From: Marinigracilibium pacificum
GTDB taxonomy: Bacteria; Bacteroidota; Bacteroidia; Cytophagales; Cyclobacteriaceae
NCBI RefSeq assembly: GCF_012926615.1
Contig: NZ_JABBNU010000007.1
Coordinates: 1-64,000 of the forward strand
DNA: 64,000 bases
Direction of reading: 5' to 3'
Each line of letters begins with the position of its first letter. Position 1 is the first letter of the stretch. Below, piece after piece: positions 6,297-13,498 of this stretch. The translations under genes were made by a program, and so were the position numbers. Under the pieces are notes generated by a model. The model was not told where the DNA came from. It saw only the letters and a list, made by a program, of their open reading frames with translations, and made no database searches.

Positions 6297-7220
6297 AATA
6301 AAAAGAGAACTAATTGACTCATGATCGTGAATTTTTCTTATTGCTTTCGCAAAAAGATCTGATACAGTCAATACTTTTATCTTATCACTTTCCTTTTTTA
6401 ACGGAATAGTATCAGTAACTACCATTTCTTCTAAAACACTGTTTTCAATGTTTTCGTAAGCTTTTCCACTTAGTACCGGGTGGGTAATAACTGCTCTGAC
6501 AGATTTTGCTCCTTTATCTTTCAGGATACTTGCAGCTTTGCATATGGTTCCTGCAGTATCTACAATGTCATCAACCAGAATTACATCTGCATCGTTAACA
6601 TCTCCAATAACCTGCATGCTTGCGATCTCATTAGCTCTCTTTCTGTGCTTGTCGCAAATTACCATTTCAGCATTAAAGTGCTGAGCATATCTTCTAGCTC
6701 TGCCAGTACTTCCTACATCTGGTGCAGCAAATACCACATTATCTAATTTTAAGCTTCTTAGATAGGGTACAAAAATAGATGAAGCGTCAAGGTGATCTAG
6801 TGGGATGTCAAAAAATCCTTGAATCTGCCCGGCGTGAAGATCACAAGTCATGATTCTGTCAGCACCAGCAGCAGTAAGTAGGTTTGCCATCAATTTAGCT
6901 CCTACACCAACTCTTGGCTTGTCTTTTCTGTCTTGTCTGGCATAACCAAAATATGGAATAACTACTGTGACATACTTTGCACTTGCTCTTCTTGCAGCGT
7001 CAATCATTAGAAGTAATTCCATGATATTGTCAGAAGGAGGGCAGGTAGATTGAATAAGAAAAACATCGCATCCACGAACACTTTCGTTGAAAGATGCTGA
7101 TATTTCACCATCGCTAAATTTTTGATGAGTGATAGACCCCAGTGGCTTACCGTAAAAATGTGAGATTTTTTCGGATAATTCTGCAGATCCTGATCCGGGA
7201 AAGAATTTTACTGATGACAT
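6294..7220 (-). CDS. prs: Ribose-phosphate pyrophosphokinase (PRPP synthetase)
   Basis: Prs makes phosphoribosyl pyrophosphate from ribose 5-phosphate and ATP for nucleotide, histidine and tryptophan synthesis. I place the start at the ATG at 7218-7220 (MSSVKFFPGSGS), giving 308 residues, the usual length. The frame stays open upstream to a TTG, but family members begin near here. Visible motifs are the ATP-binding loop with YARQDRK, DLHAGQIQGFF, and the PRPP-binding loop VDDIVDTAGT. It heads the prs-rplY-pth group. The tRNA-Gln terminator sits only about 33 nt upstream. Confidence 0.96.
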   Translation of the reverse strand: MSSVKFFPGSGSAELSEKISHFYGKPLGSITHQKFSDGEISASFNESVRGCDVFLIQSTCPPSDNIMELLLMIDAARRASAKYVTVVIPYFGYARQDRKDKPRVGVGAKLMANLLTAAGADRIMTCDLHAGQIQGFFDIPLDHLDASSIFVPYLRSLKLDNVVFAAPDVGSTGRARRYAQHFNAEMVICDKHRKRANEIASMQVIGDVNDADVILVDDIVDTAGTICKAASILKDKGAKSVRAVITHPVLSGKAYENIENSVLEEMVVTDTIPLKKESDKIKVLTVSDLFAKAIRKIHDHESISSLFI

Positions 7221-7252
7221 GTTATAGGGCGATCTGATTTTTAACAATAAAT

Positions 7253-7293
7253 AAAAAATCCCGAAAAATACTTAGTTTTTCCGGGATTTTTTT
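7253..7293 (-). terminator. Intrinsic terminator after tRNA-Gln
   Basis: A long hairpin (AAAAAATCCCG-AAAAA pairing with TTTTTCCGGGATTTTTT, one bulged base) lies immediately 3' of the tRNA on the minus strand. The stem is flanked by A/T tracts on both sides. Confidence 0.8.
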
Positions 7294-7294
7294 G

Positions 7295-7367
7295 TTGCCC
7301 GACTAGGGCTCGAACCTAGACTCTTCTGAACCAAAATCAGACGTGTTGCCAGTTACACCATCGGGCA
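7295..7367 (-). tRNA. tRNA-Gln (anticodon TTG)
   Basis: The 73-nt sequence folds as a cloverleaf. The acceptor TGCCCGA pairs with TCGGGCA, with A as discriminator. The anticodon stem TCTGA/TCAGA encloses loop TTTTGGT, giving anticodon TTG, which reads CAA and by wobble CAG. The T loop is GGTTCGAGCC. The terminal CCA is not encoded, so it must be added after transcription. It has its own promoter upstream and a terminator directly after it. Confidence 0.95.
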
Positions 7368-7395
7368 TTCTTGTTTTCCCATCGTTTTGGGATGA

Positions 7396-7426
7396 CAAAA
7401 GTAGAAAGGAATTTTAAAATCCCCAA
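7396..7426 (-). promoter_or_regulatory. Promoter of tRNA-Gln (-33 TTG and -7 TACTTTTG)
   Basis: On the minus strand TTG (7424-7426), a 20-nt spacer and TACTTTTG (7403-7396) fit the Bacteroidetes promoter pattern. The tRNA 5' end is 28 nt beyond the box. This is the best two-part promoter in the window. Confidence 0.65.
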
Positions 7427-7460
7427 CTTTGGAAAGAAAAAAAATTAATTTTTTTTTATC

Positions 7461-7895
7461 CTATTTTATAAGTTTTTGATTTACAAAATATTGTATTGCT
7501 AAAAAATATCCTTGCAATCCAAGTCCTGATATCATACCGATGCATTCTTTGCTTATAATACTTTTATGCCTGAAATTCTCTCTTTTGTAAATGTTGCTTA
7601 TATGAACTTCCATTACCGGATTTTTAATTCCTGCAATAGCATCTGAAATTGCTACACTAGTATGAGTATACCCACCTGCATTTAGGATTATAGCTGTGTT
7701 ATCAATAAATCCGTACTCATGGATTTTATTTATTATTTCACCTTCAATATTTGATTGATAGTATTCAATGTTTTGATCCTGAAATTCATTTTGTAGGTTT
7801 TTCAAAAAAGTTTCAAATCCTTCATTGCCATATATTTCAGGCTCTCGTTTACCTAATAAATTTAAATTGGGCCCATTGAGAATAAGAATGTTCAT
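7461..7895 (-). CDS. aroQ: 3-dehydroquinate dehydratase, type II
   Basis: AroQ performs the third step of the shikimate pathway, dehydrating 3-dehydroquinate to 3-dehydroshikimate. The start is the ATG at 7893-7895 (MNILILNGPNLNLLG); the frame also opens one codon earlier on a TTG. At 144 residues it matches type II enzymes, which form dodecamers. Catalytic Arg17 and Tyr22 lie in the mobile loop GKREPEIYG. The NAGGYTHTS substrate loop and VHISNIYKRE with the catalytic histidine are intact. It is divergent from xerD and stands alone. Confidence 0.96.
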   Translation of the reverse strand: MNILILNGPNLNLLGKREPEIYGNEGFETFLKNLQNEFQDQNIEYYQSNIEGEIINKIHEYGFIDNTAIILNAGGYTHTSVAISDAIAGIKNPVMEVHISNIYKRENFRHKSIISKECIGMISGLGLQGYFLAIQYFVNQKLIK

Positions 7896-7965
7896 CAAGT
7901 CTTTTTTTTCGCAAACTAATATAATGATTGTATTTTATGAATAAATTAGGTCATTTTTGAATTCA

Positions 7966-8880
7966 ATGAACTGGTTGCATTATATCAAATCATTTAAAGC
8001 TTACCTCAAGCTTGAAAGGAGTGTTTCTGAAAATACTCAACTGGCATATGAGAGAGATGTGAAGAATTTAGCTGTTTTTGCTACTGATAAAAACTTGTCA
8101 GTACAAAATATTAAGTTGAATGATATTGAAGAATTTGTTGAAGAACTTTCCAAGTTAGGGTATTCACCATACTCTCAAGCTCGAATGATTTCAGGTATAA
8201 AGTCCTTTTTTACATATCTTCTTTTTGAAAATATAATTGAAAATGATCCATCTCAATTATTAGAAACTCCACGTATTCCAAGAAAACTCCCCGATGTATT
8301 GGATGTATTTGAAATCGATGCAATTCTTGAATCAATAGAGATGAACACCTTTGATGGAGCAAGGTCAAGGGCTTTGATTGAACTTTTATATGGTAGTGGG
8401 TTGAGAGTTAGTGAAGCTGTTGATCTTCGAATTAGTGATGTATTTATTGATCAGGGTTTTTTAAGAGTTATTGGAAAAGGGAATAAGGAGAGATTAGTTC
8501 CTGTAGGTAGGTCAGCAAAAAAACACCTTAAGATTTACTTAAAAGAGTGGAGACAGCAATTAGTTAATAATGATCGTGTGAAACAAGATGCCTCTGACCT
8601 TATTTTTTTAAATCAAAAAGGAGGGAAGTTGTCTAGAATTAGTGCTTTTACTAAGGTGAAAGAATTAACAAGGAAGGCAGGAATCAAAAAGCAGGTAAGT
8701 CCTCACACTTTTCGACATTCATTTGCAACACACCTAATTGAGGGGGGAGCTGACCTTAGGGCTGTTCAGGAAATGCTCGGTCATAAATCAATTACAACAA
8801 CTGAGGTTTATACTCACATTGATAGAGACTTTTTACAACAGGTTGTAAATGATTTTTTACCCAAAAGGAAAAAAGACTGA
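7966..8880 (+). CDS. xerD: Site-specific tyrosine recombinase XerD-type
   Basis: This is a housekeeping tyrosine recombinase that resolves chromosome dimers at the dif site during division, working with FtsK, which is encoded 2 kb downstream. I choose the ATG at 7966 (MNWLHYIKSF; 304 residues); the frame opens three codons earlier on a TTG. An N-terminal SAM-like core-binding domain (about 5-90) is followed by the catalytic domain with Arg147 (GLRVSE), Lys171, His247 and Arg250 (HTFRH), His273 (LGH) and nucleophile Tyr282 (VYTH). No attachment site or phage gene is nearby, so this is not an integrase of a mobile element. A TTG-N21-CATTTTTG promoter-like pair lies at 7928-7959. Confidence 0.93.
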   Translation: MNWLHYIKSFKAYLKLERSVSENTQLAYERDVKNLAVFATDKNLSVQNIKLNDIEEFVEELSKLGYSPYSQARMISGIKSFFTYLLFENIIENDPSQLLETPRIPRKLPDVLDVFEIDAILESIEMNTFDGARSRALIELLYGSGLRVSEAVDLRISDVFIDQGFLRVIGKGNKERLVPVGRSAKKHLKIYLKEWRQQLVNNDRVKQDASDLIFLNQKGGKLSRISAFTKVKELTRKAGIKKQVSPHTFRHSFATHLIEGGADLRAVQEMLGHKSITTTEVYTHIDRDFLQQVVNDFLPKRKKD

Positions 8881-8881
8881 A

Positions 8882-9457
8882 TCAATCACTTAAGTGAATA
8901 AGGTTCTTTTTTTTAATTATAGAACTATCTATATGTAATGGCAAGCTAAAAACGCCCATTAGTCCCAAAGCCAATGTACAAAATCCAATAAAAAAATACA
9001 GGTAAATGTTTAACTCGAGGTTAAAGTGAGAAATTATAGATTGCTGGTAGCTGGCAAAAGATTTACCTACTATTAACATAATAAGAATAAAAATAAACCC
9101 TTTTTTACTAATAGTTAGCTTGTATATACAGCAACTGGCCAATCCTAAAAATATCCCTGAAACTATTTGAAGACAATAATTTACAATGTTTATCTCTGAA
9201 CAAAGGAACTGCATGGTTAATGCAATAAAAACTATCTTTATTGAATGTTTGAATATAGGTTTAAAATCTTCTATGTGACTATTCCATACATAACTCAGAG
9301 AAAACGGGATAGATACAATGAAGGAATAAATTATGATTAAATGGTTTAATGTATTTTCAACTTGAATATTATTGAAAATAAAAATGAGGAATTGAATCGA
9401 ATATCCAAAGGCAAAAAAACATGAATAAATAAATGGCGAAATACACTTGTTTCTCAT
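8882..9457 (-). CDS. Hypothetical multi-pass membrane protein
   Basis: A 191-residue protein of unknown family. About six hydrophobic segments fill most of its length (near 10-28, 38-58, 75-90, 97-112, 118-135 and 150-172). Loops are short and a basic cytoplasmic-looking tail (IIKKKN) ends it. Cysteines are unusually frequent for this genome, including a CC pair near 108. The stop codons of this gene and xerD are one base apart. No signal peptide, enzyme motif or operon partner points to a role. It could be a half-size transporter-like protein, but that is a guess. Confidence 0.6.
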   Translation of the reverse strand: MRNKCISPFIYSCFFAFGYSIQFLIFIFNNIQVENTLNHLIIIYSFIVSIPFSLSYVWNSHIEDFKPIFKHSIKIVFIALTMQFLCSEINIVNYCLQIVSGIFLGLASCCIYKLTISKKGFIFILIMLIVGKSFASYQQSIISHFNLELNIYLYFFIGFCTLALGLMGVFSLPLHIDSSIIKKKNLIHLSD

Positions 9458-9596
9458 GTTTTAAATTTCATCACTAATAGTTATCTAGGTGTTTATTTCA
9501 TGTCAAAATTTTGTTAAATTAATGATTGTAATATGATATCGGAATTAAATTTTGCTTTTTGAAAAAATTCTTAATAATTTTTTAATATTAAAAATG

Positions 9597-9627
9597 TTGT
9601 GATATCGCCAGTTTATAGGCAGTTTTG
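9597..9627 (+). promoter_or_regulatory. Possible promoter for a small RNA upstream of pyrD
   Basis: TTG (9597-9599), 20 nt, then CAGTTTTG (9620-9627), which matches TAnnTTTG at all fixed bases except the first. The spacing is the same as in the tRNA-Gln promoter. Confidence 0.35.
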
Positions 9628-9633
9628 CATCGT

Positions 9634-9801
9634 TGAACGAAATTCGTTTATTAAAATAAGTTAAAAACATAACGAAGTAGTCATAACGATCGTTATTAGT
9701 TTATAAATTGATATTAAAGCATATAGCTTACAGATATAAAAAATTAGGTTTAGGTTTAGGTTTAATGGGGGCTGTTCTATTTGGACAGTCTCTTTTTTTT
9801 T
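9634..9801 (+). ncRNA. Candidate small RNA or pyrD leader ending in a strong terminator
   Basis: The 378-base gap 9458-9835 holds no clear gene, but its right half looks like a short transcription unit of about 165 nt. It starts after a plausible promoter and ends in an intrinsic terminator. Inside are the inverted repeat AACGAA-A-TTCGTT (9636-9648), the direct repeat CATAACGA (two copies, near 9669 and 9682), the perfect palindrome ATAACGATCGTTAT (9683-9696) and three tandem TTAGGT units (9744-9761). A reading frame through the repeat ends [13 protein letters not shown]... at a TAG near 9802 and resembles a signal peptide, but has no upstream ATG. It may be an sRNA, a regulated leader of pyrD, or a decayed gene start. 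The left half, 9458-9596, holds nothing I recognise. Confidence 0.35.
9768..9801 (+). terminator. Intrinsic terminator upstream of pyrD
   Basis: A 10-bp stem with three G-T pairs (GGGGCTGTTC/GGACAGTCTC) and loop TATTT is followed by nine T. It lies 35 nt before pyrD on the same strand, with no upstream plus-strand gene since xerD. Confidence 0.75.
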
Positions 9802-9835
9802 AGTTAAACAACATTTATTTTTACCAAAAAAAACT

Positions 9836-10876
9836 GTGATCTATAAAATTTTAATCCGCCCTATTTTTTTTCTGTTTGATCCGGAATCTATTCATCATTT
9901 TACCTTCTCTGCTATCAGGTTGATTTCTAAAATCCCTGGAATACCTGCACTGTTCCGACTAATTTATAATTACAAGGATAAAAAGCTTGAACGAGAGGTG
10001 TTTGGGATAAAATTCCCTAATCCGGTTGGCCTTGCTGCTGGATTTGATAAGGATGCTAAACTCGTTGATGAGTTAGGTAATTTTGGCTTTGGCTTTGTTG
10101 AAATTGGAACGTTGACTCCGGTTGGTCAGCCTGGAAATGATAAACCTAGATTATTCAGGTTGCCCAAAGATAAAGCGGTTATCAACAGAATGGGATTCAA
10201 TAATGAGGGAGTTGATGACGCCGTTGAAAGATTAAAAAATAGAAAGTCAAAAATTATAGTAGGGGGTAACATTGGTAAAAATAAAGTTACTCCGAATAAA
10301 GATGCTGTTTCAGATTATATAAAATCTTTTAAGGCTCTGTATGACCATGTTGATTATTTTGTTGTTAATGTCAGTTCTCCAAATACACCAAATTTGAGAG
10401 AATTACAGGAAAAGGAACCTCTTAAAGAATTACTCTCAGAGATTCAACATGTTAACTATCATATGCCTGAGAAAAAGCCACTGCTTTTAAAGATTGCACC
10501 AGATTTAAGCGATCATCAATTAGATGATATTGTTGATATTGTTCAATCTGTAAAACTTTCAGGTATAATAGCAACTAATACAACAATATCTCGAATGAAT
10601 CTCAAAACAGATTCTTCTAAGGTTGAGTCTATAGGAGCCGGAGGACTTAGTGGCAGACCATTGAAAGACAGGGCAACCGAAGTAATAACCTATTTAAATA
10701 CTAAGCTTAATGGAGAGGTTCCAATAATAGCTGTAGGAGGAATCTTCACTGGAGAGGATGCAGTAGAAAAACTTAAAGCTGGAGCATCTCTGGTACAGGT
10801 ATATACAGGGTTTATCTATGAAGGTCCTGCGATAATTAAAAACATTAATAAAAGGATTCTTAAGGAAAATCTGTAA
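9836..10876 (+). CDS. pyrD: Dihydroorotate dehydrogenase (quinone), class 2
   Basis: PyrD oxidises dihydroorotate to orotate and passes electrons to quinone at the inner membrane, the fourth step of pyrimidine synthesis. The start is a GTG ([20 protein letters not shown]); the N-terminal amphipathic helix is the membrane and quinone-binding part that defines class 2. At 346 residues it is normal. FMN-binding [11 protein letters not shown] and the active-site segment [12 protein letters not shown], with catalytic Ser181, are intact, as are GAGGLSGRP and the C-terminal AVGGI loop. It stands behind a terminator, so it either has its own promoter in 9802-9835 or depends on read-through. Confidence 0.96.
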
Positions 10877-10972
10877 TTTCGCTACTGCTTAAAAATTTAA
10901 TTAAATACTTTATTTTAGTTTTTAGCGTTATTAATATTTGTAAATTTATAAAGAGGGATTTGATTTTTTAAC

Positions 10973-13498
10973 ATGGCATCTAACACCTATAAGTCAAATA
11001 ATTTTAAAAAGAAGAAATCAAAAGAATCCGGGAAGAAGAAAATCAATTTGAATTTTTCGTTTTTTTCTGACCGCAGGCTTCATCTGGTATTTGGGTTTTT
11101 CTTTTTAATAGCCTCACTGTTTCTTTTAATAGCATTTATTTCATATCTGTTTACTGGAAAAGCTGATCAGAGTATTGTAGAATCTTTAGGAGATACTTCA
11201 ATGCTAACAGAAGGTCGTGAAGCAGAAAACTGGATGAAGCTTACAGGTGCTGTTGCTTCTTATTACTTTATATTTAAATGGATTGGTATTGGAGCGTTTC
11301 TTATACCACCTTTGATGTTTAACTGGGGTTACTCAATTGTATTTAAAAGAACCTTACTTCCGGTAAAAAGCTCTACCTCTTTTGTTATTTTCACAAGTTT
11401 CTGGTTAAGTGTTCTTTTAGGATATCTTGTGGTTAAAGCTGATGGCCAGAGTTCTTTAGATTTTATATGCGGAGGAATTGGTTTTGAGCTCGCTAGTGTG
11501 TTTGAAAATCTTATGGGGTGGGGAACATTGTTGTTTCTTTTCTTTTCTTTAGTAGCTTTTATAATTTACTTTTTTAATGTCACCACAATTGGTGGTTTAA
11601 CTTCATCAGTTGAAAAAGGGATTAAAGATGTTGAAGATCACCTTCAAGATGAATGGTCTGAAATGAAAAGATCTGTTTCAGGCGACTCAAAAATTGAAAA
11701 TGATACGGATAATGAAAATCAATCAGACCTAACAGATTATGAGGAAGAAGTAATTAATGCACATCAAAATTCGGATGAAGACGAGCTAAATGCATGGGAG
11801 ATTACTTCAAATGAAAAAAAGGAAAAAATCAGAAAGGCTGAAGAAACCGATAAATTAGAGTTAGAAGTTGAAGACCCTCTGGATACTTCTTCATTGGAAG
11901 ATGATTTATTGAGTGATGATGAAGATGAGTTAAGCCTTGAAATAGAAGATTCTGTAAAGTCTGAAAAAACAGTTGCTCAACTGGAAAATTATGATCCTAC
12001 ATTAGATCTTTCTTCTTACAAATATCCGCCTCTAGATATACTAAAATCACATGATTCTGGCCAGGTAAAAGTTTCGAAGGAAGAACTTGAGCAAAATAAG
12101 GATAAGATTGTTGAAACCCTTGTAAACTTTAAAATTGGCATTTCTAGTATAAAAGCTACAATCGGACCAACTGTTACTTTATATGAGATTGTTCCTGAGG
12201 CAGGGGTGAAAATTTCAAAGATTAAAAATCTTGAAGATGATATTGCTCTGTCATTGGCTGCATTAGGAATAAGGATTATCGCACCTATTCCGGGACGTGG
12301 AACAATTGGTATCGAAGTGCCAAATAAAAACAGGGAAATGGTTTCTTTAAAATCTCTGCTTTCAACTGAGAAATTCACGAAAGCCGGGTATGAGCTACCA
12401 ATAGCACTTGGGAAAACTATTTCTAATGAAGTTTTTATTTCCGACCTGGCAAAAATGCCCCATTTATTGATGGCTGGTGCTACCGGACAAGGTAAGTCAG
12501 TAGGGTTAAATGTAATTCTGGCTTCATTGATTTATAAAAAACACCCTTCTCAACTCAAGTTTGTTTTGGTTGATCCCAAAAAGGTTGAGTTGACTTTATT
12601 TAATAAAATAGAGAGACACTTTTTAGCAATGCTTCCTAATAGCGAAGAGGCTATTATTACAGACACCAAGAAGGTTGTTTATACATTAAATTCACTCTGT
12701 GAGGAAATGGATACCCGATATGACCTGTTAAAAGATGCAGGTTGTAGAAATCTTAAGGAGTATAATAATAAATTTGTTAATAGAAGACTAAACCCTGAAA
12801 ATGGGCATAGATTTTTACCTTACATTGTGGTTGTTATTGACGAGTTGGCAGATCTTATGATGACAGCAGGTAAGGAAGTTGAAACACCAATTGCCAGATT
12901 AGCACAGCTAGCTCGTGCTGTAGGACTTCATTTGGTGATTGCAACTCAAAGACCTTCTGTAAATGTGATTACAGGTACTATTAAAGCAAACTTCCCTGCC
13001 AGATTGAGTTTTAGGGTAACTTCTAAAATTGACTCCAGAACTATCTTAGATACTGGAGGAGCCGAGCAGTTGGTTGGAATGGGAGATATGCTTTTAAGCA
13101 CTGGCTCTGATATGCTTAGGCTTCAATGTGCTTTTGTAGATACACCTGAAGTTGAAGAATTATGTGAATTTGTTGGTAGCCAAAGAGGGTATCCTTCTGC
13201 ATATATGTTGCCTGAATATGAAGGTGATGAAGATTCTGGAATAGGAGATGTTGATCTTTCGGAAAGGGATGTATTATTTGATGATGCAGCTAGACTTATA
13301 GTTATGCATCAGCAGGGAAGTACTTCGTTAATTCAACGTAAACTTAAATTAGGATATAATAGAGCTGGACGTCTTATTGATCAATTAGAGGCTGCTGGAG
13401 TCGTAGGTGGGTTTGAAGGAAGTAAAGCAAGAGAAGTTTTGATCCAGGATGAATCAAGTTTGGAACAATTATTGAATGACCTCAATAACAAAAAGTAA
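10973..13498 (+). CDS. ftsK: DNA translocase FtsK
   Basis: FtsK is a septum-bound ATPase that pumps DNA during division and activates XerD at dif. The 841-residue protein has four N-terminal membrane helices (about 37-60, 95-118, 137-155 and 184-202), a strongly acidic linker (about 220-335, rich in Asp and Glu), and an alpha-beta motor with Walker A GATGQGKS at 502-509 and Walker B VVVIDELAD near 620. A C-terminal winged-helix gamma domain (about 770-841) reads the orienting sequences. The linker is short compared with Proteobacteria. It is followed after 24 nt by lolA, an arrangement that suggests co-transcription. Confidence 0.95.
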   Translation: MASNTYKSNNFKKKKSKESGKKKINLNFSFFSDRRLHLVFGFFFLIASLFLLIAFISYLFTGKADQSIVESLGDTSMLTEGREAENWMKLTGAVASYYFIFKWIGIGAFLIPPLMFNWGYSIVFKRTLLPVKSSTSFVIFTSFWLSVLLGYLVVKADGQSSLDFICGGIGFELASVFENLMGWGTLLFLFFSLVAFIIYFFNVTTIGGLTSSVEKGIKDVEDHLQDEWSEMKRSVSGDSKIENDTDNENQSDLTDYEEEVINAHQNSDEDELNAWEITSNEKKEKIRKAEETDKLELEVEDPLDTSSLEDDLLSDDEDELSLEIEDSVKSEKTVAQLENYDPTLDLSSYKYPPLDILKSHDSGQVKVSKEELEQNKDKIVETLVNFKIGISSIKATIGPTVTLYEIVPEAGVKISKIKNLEDDIALSLAALGIRIIAPIPGRGTIGIEVPNKNREMVSLKSLLSTEKFTKAGYELPIALGKTISNEVFISDLAKMPHLLMAGATGQGKSVGLNVILASLIYKKHPSQLKFVLVDPKKVELTLFNKIERHFLAMLPNSEEAIITDTKKVVYTLNSLCEEMDTRYDLLKDAGCRNLKEYNNKFVNRRLNPENGHRFLPYIVVVIDELADLMMTAGKEVETPIARLAQLARAVGLHLVIATQRPSVNVITGTIKANFPARLSFRVTSKIDSRTILDTGGAEQLVGMGDMLLSTGSDMLRLQCAFVDTPEVEELCEFVGSQRGYPSAYMLPEYEGDEDSGIGDVDLSERDVLFDDAARLIVMHQQGSTSLIQRKLKLGYNRAGRLIDQLEAAGVVGGFEGSKAREVLIQDESSLEQLLNDLNNKK

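Follow-up and report, generated by a model that had tools for sequence, protein, structure and literature searches.

A candidate antisense small RNA gene upstream of pyrD in Marinigracilibium pacificum with predicted pairing to susC translation starts

In a 64,000-nucleotide stretch of Marinigracilibium pacificum DNA (contig NZ_JABBNU010000007.1, positions 1 to 64,000 of the forward strand; here called the window), the segment directly upstream of pyrD appears to be the gene of a trans-acting antisense small RNA of about 165 nt, which would block translation of susC in a way resembling the FopS RNAs of Bacteroides. We consider this reading likely and put its probability at roughly 0.7, on the basis of sequence comparison and predicted pairing. 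The preliminary description of this segment, made from the letters of the window, had an independent RNA among its readings. This reading is strengthened by conservation of the upstream block, the repeat, and the terminator around a stretch that drifts, by a probable sister RNA elsewhere in the genome, and by long complementarity to an mRNA start. That the repeat can be read as a seed, with a predicted link to susC, had been missed.

The xerD gene ends at position 8880, and the GTG start codon of pyrD lies at 9836. On the plus strand from xerD to pyrD there follow an AT-rich block, CAGTTTTGCAT, AACGA repeats, a palindrome, three TTAGGT units, a hairpin, and nine T. The AACGA repeats, the 14-bp palindrome, the three TTAGGT units, and the terminator with nine T were all found as described, and the promoter-like combination of TTG at 9597-9599, 20 nt, and CAGTTTTG can be read directly from the sequence, with a TTG that is not conserved. 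It was also correct that there is no gene to terminate on this strand after xerD, as the list of open reading frames (ORFs) holds no plus-strand ORF of at least 100 aa between xerD and the hairpin. An ORF of 191 aa on the minus strand (8882-9457), convergent with xerD and rich in hydrophobic residues, gave no NCBIfam match at 1e-5. The features of the segment are the following.

9569-9590, plus strand: AT-rich stretch with 19/22 columns invariant, perhaps an upstream promoter element
9597-9599, plus strand: TTG, taken as a -33 element in the preliminary description; present here, GAG and GAA in the relatives
9620-9627, plus strand: CAGTTTTG, 7/8 match to the -7 element TANNTTTG, 20 nt after the TTG and followed by a conserved GCAT
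9634-9801, plus strand: proposed small RNA, about 165 nt, delimited by the promoter-like sequence and the terminator
9683-9696, no strand: 14-bp perfect palindrome ATAACGATCGTTAT, not conserved
9744-9761, plus strand: three tandem TTAGGT units, read directly
9744-9766, plus strand: putative seed, three TTAGGT units and TTAAT, complement of susC leaders (23/23 columns invariant)
9767-9801, plus strand: intrinsic terminator, 11-pair hairpin (9767-9793) and nine T (9793-9801)
9816-9823, plus strand: TATTTTTA, located after the terminator and probably the -7 element of pyrD (TATTTTTG in both relatives)
9836-10876, plus strand: pyrD, quinone-dependent dihydroorotate dehydrogenase (NF003652, 503.9 bits; TIGR01036, 425.3 bits)

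The folding of 9597-9835 has a z score of -3.04, and 2 of 200 shuffled sequences folded equally well. When up to three mismatches were allowed, GGTTTAGGTTTAGGTTTAA occurred once, as an exact copy, against a mean of 0.06 in shuffles. A sigma-70 promoter scan was uninformative (29 found, 24.7 expected), and terminator-like sites were not in excess in the region 7000-12500 (3 found, 2.2 expected). Searching 9480-9900 against Rfam to an E value of 10 gave nine weak matches, all far under their cut-offs. At gathering score, the sole Rfam match of the window is a tRNA gene at 7295-7367 on the minus strand.

We compared the segment between the window genome (G000) and the two other genomes of its genus, Mangrovivirga (G001 and G002). 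The block was found in all three, each time ahead of pyrD, the three being relatives and not independent samples. Invariant alignment columns among these three species make up 19/22 of the AT-rich block, 21/23 of CAGTTTTGCATCGTTGAACGAAA at 9620-9642, all 23 of the repeat block TTAGGTTTAGGTTTAGGTTTAAT (TTAGGT3-TTAAT), and 29/36 of the hairpin and T tract, but just 13/29 of the TTG and its spacer, 7/27 of the palindrome region (9677-9697), and 24/48 of the columns at 9698-9743. Because conservation is low at the TTG and the palindrome and high in other parts, these two are probably incidental. The conserved unit thus consists of a promoter-side block, the repeat, and the terminator, a layout expected of a small RNA gene.

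The expectation that stem pairing is kept in relatives was borne out in the terminator, where 8 of 10 consensus pairs are unchanged in the three species and 2 exchange G-C and G-U, but not convincingly elsewhere. Outside the terminator, the three-species consensus fold lacks convincing support (covariation term, +2.24); two-sided changes are seen in 4 of its 66 pairs, none of them inside the terminator. We tentatively place the start site of the proposed RNA near 9630-9634. In both relatives an exact TANNTTTG stops 41 nt short of the seed, from which an RNA of only about 95 nt might be made. The window copy has no exact TANNTTTG, and the -33 element is not conserved. The length of about 165 nt is thus provisional.

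The seed is not confined to this locus. A search of the window genome with its 19-mer, allowing one mismatch, gave four sites, three of which are RNA-like, while the remaining one lies in the opposite sense directly before the ATG of a susC gene. In the three genomes, the exact 15-mer AAACCTAAACCTAAA is limited to the RNA upstream of pyrD, the 3' untranslated region (3'UTR) of rimM, and the susC leader, each in 3/3 genomes, and to a third RNA-like site in G000 only, and the RNA copies with an exact seed number three in G000, two in G001, and two in G002. In the rimM (TIGR02273) 3'UTR (L006:1501-1620, L005, and L004), the seed is located 60-odd bases past the stop codon in all three genomes and is followed by AACGGGCC, a stretch resembling a hairpin, which is imperfect in G000, and a run of eight T; this copy is probably a 3'UTR-derived sister RNA. 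The third site is intergenic (L366, G000:C10 near 8268), with a strong terminator after the seed and an exact TATATTTG upstream. The pyrD and rimM RNAs share about 31 to 34 bases around the seed and little else that is visible, which is the appearance expected of a common seed. Folded alone, the window RNA has a partly open seed, with a mean unpaired probability of 0.34.

The complement of the seed was found just before the ATG of the orthologous susC in all three genomes, as 21 nt ending 3 nt before the AUG. All seven seed RNAs are predicted to pair, over 21 bases without interruption, with the susC leader of their own genome, with duplex energies of -32.6 to -34.7 kcal/mol and no or one G-U pair. 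The predicted pairing passes the repeat, on the AACGG side in the rimM RNAs and on the ACTG side in the third RNA; in the pyrD RNAs it passes into AATGG by a G-U, and the seed bases run from inside the repeat to TGG. The susC leader CCGTTAAACCTAAACCTAAACAGT-ATG is identical in the three orthologues, and the sequence further upstream differs. In G000, the target belongs to a cluster on contig C36 of three susC genes, three susD genes, and one sortilin-type gene; the leaders of these three susC genes are the top three of 20 for seed pairing. The link came to light by searching for the motif, and hence its strongest target is no independent prediction.

The RNA would be made from the conserved upstream block and end at the terminator, and its UUUAGG stretch would pair with the susC leader to within 3 nt of the AUG. 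With the nucleotides ahead of the AUG occupied, the ribosome would be blocked, and SusC, along with SusD downstream, would be lowered. Bacteroidota mRNAs are described as lacking Shine-Dalgarno sequences, with initiation tuned by mRNA structure and bases (PMC6847099). Pairing in the leader should block the ribosome because initiation in this phylum works without Shine-Dalgarno contact.

Across susC leaders in general, a weaker excess of complementarity to the seed is seen. The 45-nt leaders of the 20 SusC genes of G000 (TIGR04056 above cut-off) gave -11.4 kcal/mol, versus -7.4 kcal/mol for a background of 294 gene starts, at least one being a susC, that were taken from the window and 20 sampled stretches (p = 6e-5). 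Not one of 100 leader shuffles reached the observed mean in G000, G001, or G002, where the test used 20/20, 15/16, and 13/13 of the genes above cut-off, respectively. When the most complementary susC cluster was left out, the comparison with 292 starts gave p values of 0.0014, 0.0069, and 0.0038. Shuffles of the whole RNA never paired as well with the 20 susC leaders (0/300); when the RNA is taken at full length, susC leaders stand out less clearly from the others (p = 0.005). The word AACCTAA is present in 6/20 susC leaders versus 5/294 background leaders, one of the five being itself a susC, and in 5/15 susC leaders of G001 and 2/13 of G002; a longer word, AAACCTAAA, was found in just 1/13 susC leaders of G002 (p = 0.12). 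Several of the best background leaders belong, as judged by eye, to secreted proteins, and the excess may therefore not be peculiar to susC.

We claim the predicted link between RNA and susC for Mangrovivirga and regard a wider network as a lead. In other Cytophagales, leaders of the CCTAAACC type precede TIGR04056 (SusC) proteins. Those at L016, L017, L281, L282, L286, and L290 are partial and score 238 to 331 bits, where a full-length match needs 368; the second gene of L155 encodes a full-length one (566 bits) behind such a leader. Of the 49 susC genes listed for G181, the top 21 show only a mild excess of pairing, reached by 2/100 shuffles; comparing them with the G000 background does not give a fair p value. 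Family-wide, the leader pattern AACCTAAACC-N0-14-ATGA was counted 590 times versus 425 for the reversed control (192 genomes) and is concentrated in g37 (54/8), g16 (53/6), g34 (38/1), and g84 (31/3); the exact pattern is not in excess in Mangrovivirga (12 versus 14 in the control). About 25 AACCTAAACCTATGA sites were among the matches listed, and 20 were fetched. Four of the 20 start TIGR04056 proteins (238 to 263 bits), two lie at the start of additional TonB-receptor proteins (135 and 143 bits), five stand ahead of other long ORFs, and nine have no ORF longer than 120 codons behind them; seven of these nine may be seeds on the other strand.

The RNA side of such a network was sought as the seed followed by T6. 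This combination is not enriched family-wide (214 versus 307 in the reversed control, 196 genomes), in counts to which overlapping T runs and leaders read on the opposite strand contribute. Twenty such sites were fetched as illustrations, selected by eye mostly for terminator hairpins, and several of them lie in 3'UTRs. In L295, L299, and L302, from two other genera, what by eye seems to be the same gene, with a protein ending in VLEAGRSR or similar, has a seed-like (TTTAGG)n ahead of the terminator in its 3'UTR. The exact 21-mer was found in 62 stretches of genome contigs from many phyla. Of the 17 examined, several resemble, by eye, runs of a hexamer or repeats in coding sequence, and one (L155) looks like a susC leader; by itself the motif is therefore not diagnostic.

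A stretch of the opposite kind was found behind a sodium:alanine symporter gene (agcS). In all three genomes, its 3'UTR (L368, G000:C32:76163-76423; L369; L370) contains TTAAACCTAAACCT followed by a hairpin-like stretch and a T run, and thus has the form of a susC leader and not that of the seed. The G000 protein matches TIGR00835 (agcS, 500 bits) and PF01235 (423 bits). The CCUAAACCU stretch in the agcS-type 3'UTR may soak up the RNA and keep it away from susC; the 3'UTR would then bind the RNA as a decoy. The 3'UTRs of a glutamine synthetase gene (L009 in G035; PF18318 and PF00120) and of a DUF2911 gene (L008 in G085; PF11138) have CCTAAACCTAAACC ahead of hairpins, as in the symporter case. 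We tentatively propose, while rating it below an even chance, a post-transcriptional network across the Cytophagales, with UUUAGG repeats before the terminators of unrelated RNAs, CCUAAA at many susC start codons, and CCUAAA before the terminators of some 3'UTRs (agcS type) as decoys. It would follow the logic of FopS with another architecture and seed position, the seed moving between host RNAs.

The repeat itself can be explained in other ways. A conserved small RNA could be present that acts on other targets or in its own right, its complementarity to susC being a by-product of an AAACC-rich leader style. AAACC is indeed common in susC leaders (11/20 versus 22/294 other starts), and folding leaves the seed partly paired. 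Such a by-product would hardly account for a 21-bp complementarity that is kept in three genomes and common to three otherwise unlike RNAs, nor for leader shuffles that fall short of the observed mean, and we find this explanation unlikely. Still less probably, the repeat serves as DNA to which a transcription regulator binds, and not as an RNA seed. The TTTAGG hexamer is tandem and is inverted at susC starts relative to the RNAs, as might suit a regulator; however, the repeat stands directly before terminators or within 3 nt of an ATG, places that are both presumably transcribed, and the matches enter non-repeat bases and use G-U, which would not be predicted for a DNA site.

The preliminary description had also offered an attenuator or leader of pyrD, in which transcription begins at about 9634 and the hairpin governs read-through into the gene. 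The element TANNTTTG, which we take to be the consensus of the Bacteroidota -7 element, was found between the terminator and the pyrD start, exactly in both relatives (TATTTTTG) and with one mismatch in the window (TATTTTTA). It occurs within 50 nt of the pyrD start in 18/28 family loci (17/26 outside the genus) and at none of the 28 in the reversed control, two loci cut by contig or length being left out of the count. A -7/-33 promoter motif has been reported for Bacteroides thetaiotaomicron (PMC7366714). Transcription of pyrD most likely starts after the terminator, and because this promoter element sits 3' of it, attenuation is disfavoured, even though the T tract ends 34 nt ahead of the GTG and the same order is kept in two relatives. 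Moreover, 92 genomes of other genera have a pyrD match, and at the 28 of these loci examined no seed was found next to the gene; the seed recurs beside rimM and at the third site without a pyrimidine link, and no Rfam family reaches its cut-off at the block. We consider an attenuator very unlikely; an upstream promoter reading through into pyrD is possible, and we do not think that pyrD, as a neighbour of the RNA, is under its regulation. Least probable by far is the decayed start of an exported protein, for which a 31-codon ORF with a GLGLGL frame exists at 9708-9803. In the relatives this frame differs in its upstream ends, in its length, and in the residues after the repeat.

If the antisense reading is true, marine Cytophagales too have the strategy of a small RNA acting at susC starts, built on a different RNA layout. 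It would then become testable whether start-codon antisense repression of glycan importers is ancient in the phylum or has more than one origin, and whether such repression is tuned by decoys. In the literature searched (subscription papers and preprints excepted), small RNA control of susC starts was found in a single paper, on Bacteroides (PMC11697453), and nothing joined Cytophagales, SusC, and a small RNA.

Three known systems resemble the proposed RNA. GibS of B. thetaiotaomicron is likewise intergenic and AT-rich, has 145 nt and a long seed, and pairs with mRNA start regions; its seed, however, is in the 5' portion, and its direct targets are BT_0771 (glucan-branching enzyme) and BT_3893 (hypothetical), not susC (PMC7366714). 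Rfp18 of Flavobacterium psychrophilum is a conserved Bacteroidota small RNA with several predicted targets and one pairing region, but this region is in a stem-loop, and the predicted targets are metalloproteases and an adhesin (PMC9723704). The FopS RNAs of B. thetaiotaomicron have 65 to 70 nt, a single-stranded seed in the 5' stretch, and 12 to 15 copies per Bacteroides genome, and FopS-10 was shown in vitro to block the ribosome at the susC gene BT_3983 (PMC11697453). No FopS was among the Rfam matches (window at gathering score; 9480-9900 to E 10), with a FopS model unconfirmed in the Rfam copy used. FopS RNAs are bound by RbpB, an RRM-1 protein (PMC11697453), and G000 encodes one RRM_1 protein (86.4 bits) of the RbpB class, which matches NF058537 (113.1 bits; cut-off, 100). 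As with FopS, there are several terminator-ended candidate small RNAs per genome, and one of 14 FopS RNAs comes from a 3'UTR; FopS RNAs pair at the translation starts of susC-like mRNAs, where 21 uninterrupted pairs are predicted here in 3/3 genomes (PMC11697453). In contrast to FopS, the seed is internal and just before the terminator, about 110 nt past the inferred start of an RNA of about 165 nt, and the exact-seed copies are three, two, and two per genome, sharing little but the seed, instead of 12 to 15 (PMC11697453). The RNA is predicted to work like FopS, from which it differs in copy number and seed position, and we do not assign it to the FopS family.
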